Assembly: GCF_009913235.1 (NCBI RefSeq)
Contig: NZ_CP047897.1
Coordinates: 1,941,501-2,005,500, forward strand
DNA from: Nibribacter ruber
Lineage (GTDB): Bacteria; Bacteroidota; Bacteroidia; Cytophagales; Hymenobacteraceae
DNA: 64,000 nucleotides
Direction: 5' to 3'
Every line of letters begins with the position of its first letter. The first letter of the stretch is position 1. Of the stretch, positions 9,586-15,848 are shown piece after piece. The notes below the pieces were generated by a model, which saw nothing but the letters and a program-made list of their open reading frames with translations, did not search any database and was not told the origin of the DNA. Position numbers and translations under genes: made by a program.

Positions 9586-10152
9586 TTAAAATCTCAGTTG
9601 TGGCGCCAGAATCGGCATTTTGATGATGTTGAACAGGTCTTTCTCCTCTGGTACCGGAAAGGGCTTGCCGTTCTTGTAGAGGGTGCCGCCCTTGCTGTGG
9701 AACCCGTACTTGACCCACTGGCAGGCCAGCTTCTGGTGGGAGAACTCCGCGGAGCCGGTGCGTATGGCGTAGATCAGGCCCCAGTTCTCGCGGGTGGCGG
9801 TGAAGATGTCAATCTTCAGGTCTTTGCTGGGTATGTAGCCCTTGAACCATTTGGCGGTGGGCTTGAGGGGCCACTCTATGATGTCTGTGGTGTTGGGCTT
9901 TATCCACTGGACCCTTTCTATTTTTCTGAGCGCCTCATAGAGCATGTTGGTCATGGGGCCGGTTCCGCTGGGTACGCCGAAGAAGTCGGTGGGCGCGGGT
10001 AGCGTCTCATACCTTGGGATCGCCACCAACTCAATGTCGTTCACCTCGGGCTTTTCCCTTCTGATGGAGCCGGCCACCTCTATTCTGAGGCAGGACTCAC
10101 GCAGGTGGCGGGTGAACCACTCTGCTATTCTTCTGGCTTCGGCTAGCTGCAT
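9586..10152 (-). CDS. Minimal Pol X-like nucleotidyltransferase
   Basis: 188 aa from the ATG at 10152 (MQLAEARRIAEWF); a start at 10194 overlapping the upstream gene is possible. VAGSIRREKPEVNDIELV matches the GSxRR...DIE nucleotidyltransferase motif of DNA polymerase family X, and LKIDIFTATRENWGLIYAIR matches the third-carboxylate strand and following helix of the palm. The region after it (TGSAEFSHQKLACQWVKYGF) matches the thumb. The 8-kDa, fingers and PHP domains of cellular Pol X are absent. Role in phage DNA end processing or repair is inferred. Family call is good. Confidence 0.75.
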   Translation of the reverse strand: MQLAEARRIAEWFTRHLRESCLRIEVAGSIRREKPEVNDIELVAIPRYETLPAPTDFFGVPSGTGPMTNMLYEALRKIERVQWIKPNTTDIIEWPLKPTAKWFKGYIPSKDLKIDIFTATRENWGLIYAIRTGSAEFSHQKLACQWVKYGFHSKGGTLYKNGKPFPVPEEKDLFNIIKMPILAPQLRF

Positions 10153-10156
10153 GGCG

Positions 10157-10489
10157 TTAGGCGGTTTTGCGGCGCTGCACCTGCGGTTCGACATCCTTTA
10201 CCTGCCCGAACCTGATCACCTCGCTCCGGAGGGCGCGCAGATCGCCGTGGCTGAACTCGGCGTGCTCCAGTTTCACAGGGTAGCCGAAGCGGTCTTTCTT
10301 GCCCTCGTTCATCCATTTGCGGACGGTGGCCTGGCTGTGCTTGGTGAATTCCGCAATCTCCTTCACCGTCATGTAGCGGTCGTTGAGCTTGGCCAGCTCA
10401 GGTGCCACCAATGACATGATGCTCTGGAGTATCTCCTCTTTAGCGATGGCGATGTCGCCCTTCATTGCTATCTGATTCAAGTCTACCAT
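10157..10489 (-). CDS. Excisionase-like HTH protein
   Basis: 110 aa. After a helical N-terminus, MTVKEIAEFTKHSQATVRKW (from about residue 40) is a MerR/excisionase-type winged HTH: a helper strand, a turn at KHS and the recognition helix QATVRKWMNEG. Proteins of this shape act as DNA-binding accessory factors for phage recombination or as early regulators. Here it sits second in the leftward operon after the Cro-like gene. Confidence 0.7.
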   Translation of the reverse strand: MVDLNQIAMKGDIAIAKEEILQSIMSLVAPELAKLNDRYMTVKEIAEFTKHSQATVRKWMNEGKKDRFGYPVKLEHAEFSHGDLRALRSEVIRFGQVKDVEPQVQRRKTA

Positions 10490-10775: not shown

Positions 10776-10897
10776 ACTTTGTGAATGCTTTACTGTACAA
10801 TACTATCATATTTTCAAGTTGGTTGCAAATATTCACTAATATATTTTCACCATTATTTGTACAAGCCCTGATACACAACCAGTTAAAAACAAAAATT
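10776..10897. promoter_or_regulatory. Divergent lysogeny control region
   Basis: This 122-bp AT-rich region between the Cro-like and repressor genes holds an inverted pair (TTGTGAATGC near 10789, ATATTCACTAA near 10840) and two TGTACAA words (10794-10800 and 10858-10864). A third TTGTACA copy lies at 11298-11304, upstream of the next cargo gene. These are candidate repressor operators; promoter boxes are not clear-cut. Confidence 0.55.
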
Positions 10898-11281
10898 ATG
10901 TTACTTGGAGAGAGAGTAAAACAGGAGATTGCTAAATCTTCATTCAAAACTGAAGAGATAGCAGAGGAGATAGGGATTACAGCCAACAACCTTTACAGGC
11001 TGTACAAAAAGGATTCCTTTGAAATAAAGTACCTGCTAAAAATCTGCGAATTGCTTAACCTCCCAGTTAGCCACTTTATTGACGCACCAAATAATATCTC
11101 CAACTCTGGCCAAATACAGGCAGCCAAGCAGGTGGGGAAGAACAATCAGACAATTAGCCTTGGAGGAGAAAGTAGCTTTGACCTGAAGCACCAATTAGAA
11201 TTGTGCCAAGTAGAGAAGGCAAGCCTTGAGCAAAGGCTAAAGGATAAGGAAGAATTAATTGAGGTGCTAAGAAGTAAGTAG
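10898..11281 (+). CDS. XRE-type phage repressor
   Basis: 127 aa from the ATG at 10898 (MLLGERVKQEIAKSSFKTEE); the reading frame is open further upstream, but that part lies in the operator region. The HTH is TEEIAEEIGITANNLYRLYK, followed by KYLLKICELLNLPVSHF as in XRE proteins. The C-terminus has a Ser/Gly linker and a coiled coil (LELCQVEKASLEQRLKDKEE) for oligomerisation, rather than a LexA-like cleavage domain. So induction is probably not by RecA self-cleavage. Divergent from the Cro-like gene. Confidence 0.75.
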   Translation: MLLGERVKQEIAKSSFKTEEIAEEIGITANNLYRLYKKDSFEIKYLLKICELLNLPVSHFIDAPNNISNSGQIQAAKQVGKNNQTISLGGESSFDLKHQLELCQVEKASLEQRLKDKEELIEVLRSK

Positions 11282-11365: not shown

Positions 11366-12055
11366 ATGAAAAACTTCGGCAAAATCATTGGTGGGTTGTT
11401 CCTTGCCATTATTGCGTTACTCTTTATCGGCTACTTGAGTGATGATGAAACAAAAACAGCTTCTTCCCCAGAAAATAAGAAAGCCCAAAGCGCCTCTTTG
11501 ACACCATCAGATGCTAATGATGCCGAGTCAATCAAACTAAAAGAAGAGAGGATCGCGTCCGCTAAGAAGCAAATAATAGCACTCAAGAAAAGCTTTCATC
11601 ATGACAAGGACGAAATGAGCGGTCGCGGCTGGTATGACCATAAGGTATGGGGCAAGGGCTATCCTGAAAAAAATGCCTTAACCTGCACTGTGTTTGACAG
11701 CGGTCACATTATGCTGCGCTCTTTTTACACAGGAGATGACTGGTTATTTCACGAGAGTGTTAGTGTAAAAGTTGGTGAAGAAAGAATAGATTCTGATGCA
11801 ATCCCTTCATATGATGACAGCAACCGCCGTGATAATTCTGGTGGCACTGTATGGGAATCAATCACCTACGATTCAGATGAAGAGAATGGCATAATTGCGC
11901 TTATTGCTCAAAATGTTGAAAAGAAAATACTGGTTAGACTGAATGGAGACCAGTATTACAAAGATATTACTCTGACAAAAATAGAAAAGCAAGCAATTGC
12001 TGACGCTTATAGATTGTCAAATCTCATCAAAACCGCTAACGGCGAAGACATTTAA
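11366..12055 (+). CDS. Membrane-anchored cargo protein next to repressor
   Basis: 229 aa. The N-terminus MKNFGKIIGGLFLAIIALLF is a TM or signal anchor followed by a low-complexity Ser/Lys linker, a coiled region (EERIASAKKQIIALKKSF) and a folded beta-rich domain (about 100-180: GRGWYDHKVWGKGYPEKN, DSGHIMLRSFYTGDDWLFHE). It lies in the AT-rich cargo block immediately downstream of the repressor, preceded by a TTGTACA word. Genes at this spot in prophages are often expressed in the lysogen and block superinfection. That role is inference; I do not recognise the family with certainty. Confidence 0.6.
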   Translation: MKNFGKIIGGLFLAIIALLFIGYLSDDETKTASSPENKKAQSASLTPSDANDAESIKLKEERIASAKKQIIALKKSFHHDKDEMSGRGWYDHKVWGKGYPEKNALTCTVFDSGHIMLRSFYTGDDWLFHESVSVKVGEERIDSDAIPSYDDSNRRDNSGGTVWESITYDSDEENGIIALIAQNVEKKILVRLNGDQYYKDITLTKIEKQAIADAYRLSNLIKTANGEDI

Positions 12056-12058
12056 TTC

Positions 12059-12096
12059 CGTTTTTGGCCTGTTTTCTGGAAAACAGGCCAAAAATC
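12059..12096. repeat. Dispersed palindrome, near-perfect copy
   Basis: TTTTTGGCCTGTTTTC and GAAAACAGGCCAAAAA form a perfect 16-bp stem round a TG centre. It directly follows the 229-aa gene and is probably its terminator. It is the only well-conserved copy inside the prophage. Confidence 0.85.
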
Positions 12097-12108: not shown

Positions 12109-12240
12109 ATGCCAAAGTTTAACCTACCCTGTGACCGCTGGGAGTGGCGGGAGCTCGGCAACAAGATCCTGGCCGTGATAGCCGCCGCGTCTCTTATTGG
12201 CTGGCTGATCAGCAAGGCCTGGGAGTGGCTTTTTAACTAA
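12109..12240 (+). CDS. 43-aa membrane peptide
   Basis: ATG at 12109, TAA at 12238-12240. The product begins MPKFNLPCDRWEWRELGNK and continues with a hydrophobic TM stretch (ILAVIAAASLIGWLI), ending AWEWLFN. It is Trp-rich at both membrane borders. It sits 10 bp upstream of the membrane-protein gene of the GHKL/STAS trio and may be part of that operon. Small one-TM peptides occur in holin-like and toxin roles, but nothing here decides. Confidence 0.5.
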   Translation: MPKFNLPCDRWEWRELGNKILAVIAAASLIGWLISKAWEWLFN

Positions 12241-12250
12241 AATCAGTCTA

Positions 12251-12697
12251 ATGGAAAAGGATGTAGCAGAACTAATTATACAACATGTAGAAAATCTTAA
12301 AAGCCTTTCAGTAGGCTTGATAGCCCTACTTGTTGTTAACATACTAGGATTACTAGGACGATTTTGGGTAGAGGGAGTTTTGAAGAATAGGGATATCAAA
12401 ATAAACAAGGCGGCAATTATCAATAACAGAAAGGTAACAGTTCAAGAAAGTCTTTACCATTTATTTGATAGCCTATCCTTAATCAACCCTTATGATGCTC
12501 AAGAACTATCAATAAAAATTGTAGAGACTGATATGTTTATCAGGAAAAATAGCCTATTCCTCGATACTAGAATTCACAACATCTCTATTGCTTTGCTAGA
12601 TTATTTTAAAGAGGTCCAAGTCCAACCTCGGAAAAAGGATATAAAGTATGAATTTGATCATCTAGACATGTATACAGATGAGTTCACAAAATTTTAA
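12251..12697 (+). CDS. Membrane subunit of GHKL/STAS trio
   Basis: 148 aa. One TM helix near the N-terminus (SVGLIALLVVNILGLLGRFW, about 20-39) is followed by a cytoplasmic part of about 105 aa with alternating hydrophobic and charged residues (QESLYHLFDSLSLINPYDAQ, FIRKNSLFLDTRIHNI). Its last 20 bp overlap the ATPase gene in another frame, so translation is probably coupled. By position it could anchor or sense for the ATPase and STAS-like proteins. Family not recognised. Confidence 0.65.
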   Translation: MEKDVAELIIQHVENLKSLSVGLIALLVVNILGLLGRFWVEGVLKNRDIKINKAAIINNRKVTVQESLYHLFDSLSLINPYDAQELSIKIVETDMFIRKNSLFLDTRIHNISIALLDYFKEVQVQPRKKDIKYEFDHLDMYTDEFTKF

Positions 12698-13637
12698 AAG
12701 ATTAATTAGTGCTCCTAAACATTTTACAAATGCCAACATTTTTGATTTTATAAACTCCTGTGAACCAATATTTTCGTTAAAAAACAAGCAAGAGTCTGGG
12801 TTTGGGCTTAATATTAGTAAGATTGAACAAGCTTCTATGCTGGGAGTGTTGTTGATTTACAAAATCATGGACTTTGCTTTTGCGAATAATTGCTTTTCGC
12901 AGCCAACTTTACTTTATAATCCTGATTCGGATAATGTACTTGACAAGTATGGTTTTAAAAAACTAGTACATGCTCTGATGGCTAATTCCAAAGAAGAGGA
13001 AAAGGAAATGAGTAATCTTAAAATTTCCTACAAAGATAATTTCATCATTGCACCACAGGCTTTACTAAGAAAAAAACAATACAATCACAATTCATTAAAT
13101 TGGCAGTATTACCCGTTAATTGAGCAGTACTATAGTGAAAATAAAAAAGCAGTGTCAATGATACTCCTTTCCTTCTCAGAGATACTCTTGAACTTTTGGG
13201 AACATGCAGTTGATGACACGAAGTCCATAATAGTGGCGAATGGGAATAGTCAAAAAATAGAAATTGCTTGTGCAGACACAGGTAACGGCATAATTACTAC
13301 CTTGGGAAAGAGTTTGTCTACCAAGAACTTAGACCCTGAAAAAATACTATTAGAAGCTGTAAAAAAGGGAGTTACATCAAAAAAATTAACCAATCACATG
13401 GGATATGGTTTGTGGATTTTAGATGAGATTGCCACAAAAACCAAGGGGAGGCTTCAGATCATATCCCAAGGAGCAACTTATTCCAATAGTGGAGGTAGGA
13501 AGAAAGTGAGGAGATGTGGTTATTGGCAGGGAAGCATTGTATATCTATCTTTACCCATTGCTAATGCTGTATCATTAACAGACATCCTTCCAGAGGATGT
13601 TAAAACAAGAGGCACCATTCAAATCAATTTTGCATGA
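12678..13637 (+). CDS. GHKL-type ATPase with N-terminal STAS-like region
   Basis: 319 aa. The C-terminal half is a GHKL (histidine-kinase-type) ATPase: N box SEILLNFWEHAVDD (about 167-180, with E, N and H), G1 box ADTGNGI (199-205) and G2 box GYGLWI (242-247), then a closing beta-strand part. There is no phospho-acceptor His domain. The N-terminal 110 aa (KIEQASMLGVLLIYKIMDFA) looks like a STAS-type fold. The stop overlaps the ATG of the STAS-like gene (ATGA). Paired GHKL and STAS proteins elsewhere form anti-sigma/anti-anti-sigma switches. The domain call is strong; the biological role is open. Confidence 0.8.
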   Translation: MSSQNFKRLISAPKHFTNANIFDFINSCEPIFSLKNKQESGFGLNISKIEQASMLGVLLIYKIMDFAFANNCFSQPTLLYNPDSDNVLDKYGFKKLVHALMANSKEEEKEMSNLKISYKDNFIIAPQALLRKKQYNHNSLNWQYYPLIEQYYSENKKAVSMILLSFSEILLNFWEHAVDDTKSIIVANGNSQKIEIACADTGNGIITTLGKSLSTKNLDPEKILLEAVKKGVTSKKLTNHMGYGLWILDEIATKTKGRLQIISQGATYSNSGGRKKVRRCGYWQGSIVYLSLPIANAVSLTDILPEDVKTRGTIQINFA

Positions 13638-13921
13638 AAACATTATCGCTAGACAATTTCGCTCCTATTATCAGTGACAGACTTGTTGGTGATGAAATTT
13701 ATAACCTTATTAAGTCAGACCTTGAGACCTGCCAGCAGTTAGACATTGATCTCAAAGAGATTAAGTCAATGGCAACTTTCTGCGCAAAACAGATCTTTGG
13801 CAAACTTTACCTTGAGTTGGGAGGAGACAGCTTCTTTCAAAGAATTCGGCTTATTAATGCCACTGACGACTTAAAGACGATAATTAGGATTGGTATTCAA
13901 AGTGCTTTAGAGGATAGATAG
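13634..13921 (+). CDS. STAS-like (DUF4325-type) protein
   Basis: 95 aa, starting MKTLSLDNFAPIISDRLVGD. The pattern LDIDLKEIKSMATFCAKQIF, then IRLINATDDLKTIIRIGI, matches the STAS-like DUF4325 fold: a strand, a helix with the SFADE-like position replaced by MATFCAKQ, and a final strand and helix. Ser in the canonical phosphorylation position is not evident. It is coupled to the ATPase gene by ATGA and followed by a strong terminator, so the trio is a closed transcription unit. Confidence 0.7.
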   Translation: MKTLSLDNFAPIISDRLVGDEIYNLIKSDLETCQQLDIDLKEIKSMATFCAKQIFGKLYLELGGDSFFQRIRLINATDDLKTIIRIGIQSALEDR

Positions 13922-13941
13922 GATATCATGCTAAAATTTTA

Positions 13942-13975
13942 AAAAAAGCCGCAATTAACTTTGCGGCTTTTTTTT
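13942..13975 (+). terminator. Strong Rho-independent terminator
   Basis: AAAAAAGCCGCAA and TTGCGGCTTTTTT form a 13-bp stem with a T tract, 20 bp after the STAS-like gene. It closes the cargo block. Confidence 0.9.
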
Positions 13976-14027: not shown

Positions 14028-14267
14028 ATGTGTACCAGTAGACAAACAAGCGTACCCAGTGTGATTATGATTGCCAACCAGGTGGGTGACAACCACCAAA
14101 GTGTAGAATTGGTCTGCGGAAGTTGCGAAGAGACGCGCATCCTGATGCTGGAGCAGAGCTACATCATCCAAAGAACACTTGCCCACATTCAATCCCTCCT
14201 TCTGGGAAAGGCGGGCCTGAATCAATTGTCAAACCAAAACCCATGCGAAACAACAAATGAAGACTAA
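14028..14267 (+). CDS. Small protein upstream of integrase
   Basis: 79 aa from the ATG at 14028 (MCTSRQTSVPSVIMIANQVG); an earlier TTG lies in the T tract of the previous terminator and is unlikely. It has a Cys pair (VCGSCEETR) and a helical end (SYIIQRTLAHIQSLLLGK). The stop overlaps the integrase ATG by 11 bp. An accessory factor for integration or excision is possible from position only. Confidence 0.5.
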   Translation: MCTSRQTSVPSVIMIANQVGDNHQSVELVCGSCEETRILMLEQSYIIQRTLAHIQSLLLGKAGLNQLSNQNPCETTNED

Positions 14268-15600
14268 GAGAAACATCAGATCAGACCGGCCGGACAAGCG
14301 AGGCTATGCCCCCATCAGATTCACCGTTCACCTGGACGGCGCCAGGTTCTACATTGAGACCGGGGAGCAGTGCCTTCCGGAGAACTGGGACGGTGGCATG
14401 CGGCTTGTCACCAGTGGGGACCACTATCACAAACAAATCAACGCGAGGCTCATAAAATGGGAAAGTATACTGGAGGAGATTGCCACCAGGTACAAGAGCC
14501 GGCGCAGGATCCTGACGCAGGACCTGCTGCTGAAGGAATTCTACGAGGCGGTGGATCCAGAGGAAGAAAAACAGGAAGTGGCCTTTTTTCAGGAAAACGC
14601 CTTTCTCACCCTCATGCATAAATGGCGCTCCCACCAGCAGAGTAAAATACAGCTGACCACCGGCAAGCCCTTAGCCGACAGCACCATAAAAGGCATCACC
14701 TCCACCATCAAGAGATTTGAGAAGTTCCAGGAGGCGCGCGGCCGGGAGATAACCTTTGAGGAAATGGACCTGAAGTTCTATGAGGAGTTCCAGCAGCACC
14801 TGCTCATAGACAAGAAGCAGAAGGTGAATAATTTCGGCAAGCACATAGACCGCCTAAAAACGTTTCTGAAATGGGCAGAGGTCCAGCATGACGCGCCGGT
14901 CAACCGGAAGTACAAGCTGTTCTCCAGCCCTGAGATTTACGTGGGCGTAGACGCGCTCTCGGCCTCAGAACTGCACGCCATCTATAACCTCAACTTTGAA
15001 GACCCGCAAACGAAGGAGAAGCTGTTCACCTGCTACAAGGAGAAGGGAGTCATCAAACTGGAGGGGAGCATGCGCTTTGGCCAGTGGTGCAAGTCTGTGG
15101 AAAAGGCGCGCGACATCTTTCTCATGTGCTGCTATACCGGCATGCGCATCAGCGACGCGCTCTCATTCACCATGCTGGACATAAACCACCAGCAGGGCCT
15201 GATCATACGGCCGGCCACCAAAACCCTGAACGACTGCTACATTCCGTTTTTTGATGACGTCCTCTTCAAGCCGAAGGAGATGGTCATGAAATACTACCTG
15301 CAGTACAACACCTGCATGCCCCCGGAGCCGGCCTCTAAGGTCAACGAGTACTTGAAAGAGATCCAGAAGCTGGTGGGGATAAAGCGTCTTACCCTCACCA
15401 CCAAGATAGGCAGGAAGACCTTTGCCACCTTGAAGCTCTACCAGGGCATTCCCTCCAGGATTGTGATGCAGGCCACCGGCCACAAGACGGAAAGCAGCTT
15501 CAACCGGTATGTGGGCGTGAACACCTCAGAACTGGGCCGGGCCTTCAAGCAGGGCTCTGCCGGCGTTGGCATGAGAGACGGCGTCATGATGGTAGGCTAG
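14257..15600 (+). CDS. Tyrosine integrase
   Basis: 447 aa, typical of Bacteroidota phage and ICE integrases: N-terminal arm-binding domain (RFTVHLDGARFYIETGEQCL), SAM-like core-binding domain (about 105-215), and catalytic domain. Catalytic Arg is in CYTGMRISDAL (near 297), box II is LTTKIGRKTFATL (near 383), and ATGHKTESSFNRYVGV gives the His and the nucleophile Tyr (near 417). At the HxxR position this protein has KxxR (KIGR), an uncommon but known variation. It is the last prophage gene; the attachment site should lie just to its right. Confidence 0.95.
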   Translation: MKTKRNIRSDRPDKRGYAPIRFTVHLDGARFYIETGEQCLPENWDGGMRLVTSGDHYHKQINARLIKWESILEEIATRYKSRRRILTQDLLLKEFYEAVDPEEEKQEVAFFQENAFLTLMHKWRSHQQSKIQLTTGKPLADSTIKGITSTIKRFEKFQEARGREITFEEMDLKFYEEFQQHLLIDKKQKVNNFGKHIDRLKTFLKWAEVQHDAPVNRKYKLFSSPEIYVGVDALSASELHAIYNLNFEDPQTKEKLFTCYKEKGVIKLEGSMRFGQWCKSVEKARDIFLMCCYTGMRISDALSFTMLDINHQQGLIIRPATKTLNDCYIPFFDDVLFKPKEMVMKYYLQYNTCMPPEPASKVNEYLKEIQKLVGIKRLTLTTKIGRKTFATLKLYQGIPSRIVMQATGHKTESSFNRYVGVNTSELGRAFKQGSAGVGMRDGVMMVG

Positions 15601-15724: not shown

Positions 15725-15766
15725 AAGGCTAATTTAGGTTGAAGACGTTAATTAACTCCCTACGCG

Positions 15767-15848
15767 ACCACAGTTAAATTTAAAAAGACCTGTAAGACAA
15801 CATCTTACAGGTCTTTTTCTTTTAGGACGTACACATATACGTACAACT
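15767..15848. repeat. 82-bp terminator-containing block, copy 1
   Basis: Begins ACCACAGTTA, holds a hairpin with A/T flanks (15782-15819: GACCTGTAAGA/TCTTACAGGTC), and ends CGTACACAT...ACAACT. A second block of equal length with the same ends but a different hairpin stem lies at 19037-19118. It lies just outside the integrase and is a candidate attachment or hotspot site. Confidence 0.55.

Follow-up and report, generated by a model that had tools for sequence, protein, structure and literature searches.

A possible membrane-linked variant of the CapKS and VapKSC kinase–STAS switches in a prophage of Nibribacter ruber

The closest described relatives of the locus considered here are two systems in which a GHKL-type kinase acts on a STAS protein. 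As presented in the main text of PMC13373217 (EMBO J, June 2026), CapK is a kinase activated by ssDNA that phosphorylates the repressor CapS, and in VapKSC the VapS protein holds VapC, a PIN RNase, until Ser48 of VapS is phosphorylated by the kinase VapK, the freed VapC then acting against the phage. According to the same text, VapC is no longer neutralised if VapS carries S48E or loses its C-terminal tail, residues 94-116 being needed; F54 of VapK is a predicted ssDNA contact, with W68 as the CapK counterpart; and the VapKSC operon protects against one phage by about 2 log. Among the openly searchable papers covered by our search, this was the only one found to describe a GHKL–STAS system of this kind. 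A search of its main text for 'transmembrane', 'DUF4325' and 'Bacteroid' gave nothing; the listed passages with 'membrane' concern methods, and no membrane partner was seen.

We considered a trio of genes in the window, i.e. the whole stretch of 64,000 nt of N. ruber DNA that was analysed (Table 1). The initial annotation had described three coupled genes overlapping by 20 bp (membrane protein and GHKL genes) and by ATGA (GHKL and STAS genes) and closed by a strong terminator, and this held on inspection: all three ORFs are present on the + strand, and the closing hairpin, although a simple consensus terminator scan did not list it, was recovered by the z score of its folding energy. The GC content of the trio is 0.35 with respect to a median of 0.514, a value equally low in 1 of 974 segments of 1.6 kb. 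No Rfam family was found within 9-17 kb of the window, no NCBIfam model matched the trio above its cut-off, and none of the three proteins matched, at E 1, the models of PADLOC-DB 2.0.0 (2023), a library older than VapKSC. A 43-aa membrane peptide had also been placed ahead of the trio; the ORF exists, but in the 300 bp preceding each of the other six trios described below there is no similar hydrophobic ORF, hence we rejected it as a component and it is probably outside the system.

Table 1. Features of the trio and of its prophage surroundings, in positions of the window
Feature	Position	Strand	Remarks
Prophage HTH repressor-like protein	10781..11281	+	HTH_26 1.2e-6
Terminator-like hairpin between the preceding gene and the trio	12060..12095	+	-20.9 kcal/mol, z -6.1
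43-aa hydrophobic ORF	12109..12240	+	probably outside the system
Membrane protein gene, first in trio	12251..12697	+	148 aa, one TM
Predicted VapK/CapK-like GHKL kinase gene, second in trio	12678..13637	+	319 aa
VapS-like STAS (DUF4325) gene, third in trio	13634..13921	+	95 aa; without the VapS C-terminal tail
Intrinsic terminator hairpin closing the operon	13941..13974	+	-18.8 kcal/mol, z -5.7, T run
Prophage tyrosine integrase	14257..15600	+	Phage_integrase 4.7e-13
Candidate right attachment repeat, 19 bp	15755..15773	+	exact copy at L068:8998-9016

The STAS protein matched PF14213 (DUF4325) with 26.9 bits, against a cut-off of 23 bits, over residues 19-79, in agreement with its earlier assignment; no family besides DUF4325 was found in it, so it has no C-terminal winged HTH. 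A profile of 22 STAS sequences, the window's included, matched PDB entry 9z7o ('Escherichia VapS') with an E value of 1.7e-22. Because the register of the two proteins is gap-free from Gly19 to Gly56, Thr48 of the window protein (codon 13775-13777) aligns with Ser48 of VapS, where the Ser48 numbering is that of PMC13373217 and an offset of 18 was inferred for the 9z7o chain. At this phospho-site column there is Thr in 7/7 trios with a membrane protein gene (membrane trios) and Ser or Thr in 16/16 loci with a PIN gene (PIN loci). Beyond window residue 95 the STAS tail has 0-4 aa in all seven membrane trios and 15-21 aa in all 16 PIN loci, i.e. the VapS-type tail is absent where VapC is absent. 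The STAS antitoxin feature, with Ser/Thr48, is recognisable by sequence in the window protein, whose function as an antitoxin is putative. A tblastn search with this protein in phages returned nothing.

Along its entire length the GHKL protein matched phrog_3364 (E 3e-24), and its matches to the Pfam HATPase models were under their cut-offs. The N, G1 and G2 boxes already recognised in it proved near-invariant in a family alignment of 65 rows, gaps left out: E168 59/61, N172 60/61 and H176 59/60 in the N box; D200 60/60, G202 60/60 and G204 59/60 in the G1 box; G242 60/62 and G244 61/61 in the G2 box. Foldseek alone, run on the GHKL protein, put Hsp90-type chains first, with low TM-scores. A VapK-type GHKL kinase domain can be assigned, with predicted kinase activity, and we regard it as very probable that the GHKL and STAS proteins are a kinase–substrate pair. 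The N-terminal part of the protein is probably a STAS-like region: its profile matched the STAS domain of prestin at positions 28-92 (E 8e-4), and in its model (pLDDT 70) strands alternate with helices. An hhalign comparison of this region with the STAS alignment was weak (probability 15%), and a later structural comparison of the GHKL protein barely covered it. With tblastn the window GHKL protein gave one partial hit in phages and nothing in plasmids.

The same three genes, coupled and in the same order, were found at seven distinct loci, which are all of the window's clade found by the searches: the window, Spirosoma arboris (L072; its trio proteins are identical to those of IMG/VR contig L004, and the two count as one locus), Shiella aurantiaca (L070), Pontibacter vulgaris (L071), the genome G342 (L083) and the IMG/VR contigs L148 and L149. 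The distances are from -4 to -41 bp between the membrane protein and GHKL genes and from -10 to +8 bp between the GHKL and STAS genes, and the GHKL proteins are 37-55% and the STAS proteins 49-64% identical to those of the window. The prevalence of the membrane trio is low. In fact, a two-row membrane profile gave two strong matches in 395 genomes of the phylum, the window's own included, and weak ones at seven places in six genomes (E 6e-4 to 0.009), and a five-row profile gave the window's own match alone in 395 genomes of the class.

The membrane protein of the window has, as had been read from the sequence, one TM (residues 18-36 by hydropathy), which is preceded by a 17-aa N-terminus and followed by a helical domain of about 112 aa, all-helical in an AlphaFold2 model based on 4 sequences (pLDDT 81). 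By the positive-inside rule, the charge distribution predicts an outer N-terminus and an inner (cytosolic) helical domain, a topology that the charge pattern does not give in L071 and L148. Clear homologues are present in five other trios (E 5e-11 or better), and the match to L148 is weak (E 0.011). Conservation concerns the cytosolic helical part, residues ~45-147, and the anchor is variable: the L071 protein aligns from window residue 45 onward and has an unrelated N-terminal TM of its own, and the L148 protein, which has two TMs and an N-part like phrog_8999 (E 6.5e-11), aligns from residue 49. The window protein matched no Pfam family at E 1, the Pfam matches of its family are each in 1/5 members, and phrog_34474 matched weakly (E 0.0045). 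Structural searches with the model gave no useful match in PDB (best E 0.72) or in BFVD (best E 0.078).

We propose, with a probability of about 0.48, that the trio is a prophage-borne, membrane-linked variant of the CapK/CapS–VapK/VapS switches, in which the switch controls a membrane effector for abortive defence. At rest, the STAS protein would bind the helical, cytosolic part of the membrane protein and restrain it. Infection or stress would activate the GHKL protein, which would phosphorylate Thr48 of the STAS protein; the phosphorylated STAS protein would release the membrane protein, and this, once free, would act at the inner membrane, so that growth would stop or the membrane potential would be lost and infection by a competing phage would be aborted. 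The phosphorylation, the release and the anti-phage role are suggested by the published relatives; the effector role of the membrane protein, and a trigger other than ssDNA or additional to it, are proposed from the present comparison only. That the STAS protein is homologous to VapS, that it has Thr at the phospho-site and that the kinase boxes are near-invariant argues for this effector model. Against it, the membrane segment is unconserved between the trios, a pattern unexpected in a pore-former and equally compatible with a tether, and the membrane protein gene comes first, by the kinase gene, unlike vapC, which comes last. A more specific version, in which a membrane effector with a freely exchangeable anchor has taken over from the VapC RNase, and another trigger from ssDNA sensing, possibly the disturbance of the membrane by a phage, in a class spread by phages, is held more tentatively.

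The initial annotation had proposed a candidate anti-phage or signalling system; this stands insofar as CapKS and VapKSC are immune regulators or anti-phage systems in the main text of PMC13373217, and is weakened in that the membrane protein may be a sensor or a tether. Precisely, the membrane protein could be the input of the system, with its helical domain docking the GHKL kinase at the membrane and sensing phage DNA entry or membrane disturbance instead of ssDNA, and with the STAS protein acting on an unlinked target. The column of window Gln51 is relevant here. VapK F54 was placed in it by inference from an alignment that did not include the Escherichia VapK sequence; it holds F or W in 14/16 PIN loci and an aromatic residue in 0/7 membrane trios, and therefore the published ssDNA trigger may not apply. 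The membrane protein gene also overlaps the kinase gene in 7/7 trios, and an exchangeable anchor on a conserved cytosolic domain would suit a sensor or tether. The cassette would then encode no effector, however, and no fourth gene common to the seven loci was seen by eye; furthermore, the 3-30 residues ahead of the first TM across the trios are few for a classical sensor. On balance we consider this reading rather unlikely.

The trio is cargo of a prophage of about 42 kb and lies beside its integrase gene, with the HTH repressor gene on the other side. The 19-bp repeat of Table 1 has its exact copy at the opposite prophage end, in L068 only among 155 fetched loci, and on the basis of this pair the prophage spans about 41.8 kb (G000 1,915,498-1,957,273); no tRNA gene was found at the right repeat end. 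Of ten proteins scanned to the left of the window, eight have PHROG matches, among them a tape measure protein, an endolysin, a large terminase and a head maturation protease, and a weak portal match (E 4e-5). Two further genes, inside the window, were noted. Between the repressor and the trio, a 229-aa protein with an N-terminal TM (11366-12055, +) matched the superinfection-exclusion family phrog_4980 weakly (E 0.02), and its gene is possibly a second moron. On the - strand, a 202-aa prophage protein (9586-10194) without a PHROG match at E 0.1 looks, by eye only, nucleotidyltransferase-like.

Of the other trios, those of Spirosoma, L148 and L149 are also on phage or prophage contigs (4/7 with the window); the Spirosoma trio has an integrase and a repressor as neighbours, and tape-measure genes lie downstream of the trio in L148 and L149. 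The earlier view that the prophage carries the trio as cargo, and that a membrane subunit is added to a GHKL/STAS switch, is supported; the cassette of three genes is conserved and, here, AT-rich.

This context could also point to a role of the trio in the prophage's own regulation (lysogeny, induction or superinfection immunity) and not in host defence. Its position between the repressor and integrase genes is compatible with such a role, and phages of Streptococcus, Marinitoga and Bacteroides contain GHKL–STAS pairs for which no effector is obvious (L152, L153, L154, L155), three of them near integrase genes, as in Streptococcus phages and Marinitoga phage MPV1. Given such phages, a GHKL–STAS pair may also be something other than a toxin switch, a further point against the effector model. 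In L154 and L155 the alignment has no Ser/Thr at position 48. We nevertheless consider prophage regulation improbable, because the trio has a hairpin on each flank and a GC content far under that of the prophage, and because copies exist with no phage gene seen nearby (none among 2, 2 and 4 scanned neighbours in Shiella, Pontibacter and G342, respectively), the G342 trio coming directly after thrABC.

We also considered the wider GHKL–DUF4325 family in a sample of 296 Bacteroidota genomes, including that of the window. Since phrog_3364 alone is unspecific (it matches 225/296 genomes of the phylum and 7/14 control genomes, many via the ATPase domain only), only GHKL ORFs with more than 60 bits beside a DUF4325 gene were counted. 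There were 58 DUF4325 places in 50 genomes: 25 with an adjacent GHKL gene, 21 GHKL–STAS fusions (L053, L054, L065, L066, L115-L129, L141, L142; mostly ~340-350 aa and mostly of family f23) and 12 with neither, of which one is at a contig edge and several are weak matches. The initial annotation would have lost ground had the genes been rarely adjacent elsewhere or always in non-mobile chromosomal operons; they are adjacent or fused at 46/58 places, and the phage and prophage contigs above argue against the second case.

After 14 of the 25 pairs there is a PIN-family ORF, within 200 bp in nine of them; for the other five (L005, L035, L036, L037, L042) the longest-ORF start was placed further off. 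The Pfam PIN domain was found in 3/7 scanned PIN-type third genes, in one of them 0.1 bit below the cut-off, and the remaining ones were joined via a profile built in this analysis; the L041 PIN protein matched the VapC of 9z7o with 1.4e-43. Restriction-modification genes lie upstream of 5/6 scanned PIN-type (VapKSC-type) loci: HsdR, HsdM and HsdS in L041, HsdS in L046, HsdM- and HsdS-like genes in L048, an Eco57I-type gene in L052, and a methylase and ResIII in L058. Upstream of L044, also PIN-type, there is a glycoside hydrolase. The layout with restriction-modification genes is reported for 88 of 443 capKS in the main text of PMC13373217. PIN-type cassettes also occur on a plasmid (L144) and on a phage contig (L145), and ATP-binding, STAS-like and PIN genes are consecutive on Deinococcus gobiensis plasmid P5.

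A second membrane class (L055, L057, L064; L055:8444-10396) has the GHKL and STAS genes and, last, a gene for a TM and helical protein, that of L064 matching SLATT_4 weakly (E 0.0045, below cut-off). Ser/Thr48 is kept in 1/3 of this class, which therefore may work differently. In L049 and L050 the GHKL–STAS pair is followed 61 bp on by a gene of 147 aa, with a RadC-like JAB domain in L049. In a GHKL tree of 46 rows, from which L148 and L149 were left out, each third-gene class is one clade (support 95/89 for PIN, 100/100 for the window's membrane class, 97/89 for the second one), hence the core and the third gene travel together; its deep branching is weak, with several long rows including L064 and L057, and it may join the window clade to L049/L050 falsely.

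SpoIIAB/SpoIIAA and RsbW/RsbV are sigma-linked pairs whose kinase has no N-terminal STAS region and which have no membrane subunit. An ordinary anti-sigma/anti-anti-sigma partner switch of this type, acting on a sigma factor, is very improbable for the trio, even if SpoIIAB chains rank first in the structural comparison of the GHKL domain (narrowly above topoisomerase II ATPase domains), in view of the additional STAS-like region that the N-terminus probably has, as do CapK/VapK, of a DUF4325 and not SpoIIAA-type STAS, of the patchy distribution, with the GHKL gene in 0/12 same-genus genomes, and of the lack of a sigma factor among the scanned neighbours.

If the membrane-effector reading is true, the kinase–STAS switch would be a general adaptor, used not only for transcription (CapKS) and for an RNase (VapKSC) but connectable also with a membrane protein and a different trigger, and temperate phages would spread it. 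The comparison yields testable predictions on the Thr48 switch, the tail-less STAS protein and the lack of an aromatic residue in the ssDNA column.

The initial annotation knew of no named system of this composition. Its core does have a named relative, VapKSC (June 2026), and is of a kind now published; a membrane version, in which the STAS protein is tail-less and the sensor column altered, appears to be missing from the searchable papers. The CapK and CapS module, which is linked to immune loci in the main text of PMC13373217, has the same kinase–STAS logic as the trio. CapS differs in its C-terminal winged HTH, with which it represses DNA, and CapK in an extra N-terminal HTH. In Francisella phage KIRK, as given in the searchable text of PMC7924643, Fhv_0046-0048 encode a 293-aa hypothetical protein, a 112-aa DUF4325 protein and a 125-aa TM protein; the DUF4325 protein is thus between a protein of ~300 aa and a TM protein, near CI and integrase, but the membrane protein gene is last. 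Shedu type I-D and GrwAB were set aside for their different architecture in the searchable text of PMC12137116. With respect to VapKSC, the window trio has no VapC (no match to the PIN profile in the window) and has a membrane protein as its third component, encoded first and adjoining the kinase gene instead of last as vapC; its STAS protein lacks the 15-21-aa C-terminal tail, and the residue in the ssDNA-contact column is non-aromatic, unlike in VapK and CapK. Since VapC, the VapS tail and the aromatic residue are all missing, we rejected membership in VapKSC proper. What the two have in common is a GHKL kinase and a DUF4325-type STAS protein encoded in one operon, Ser/Thr48, the kinase boxes and the capacity to sit on mobile elements.
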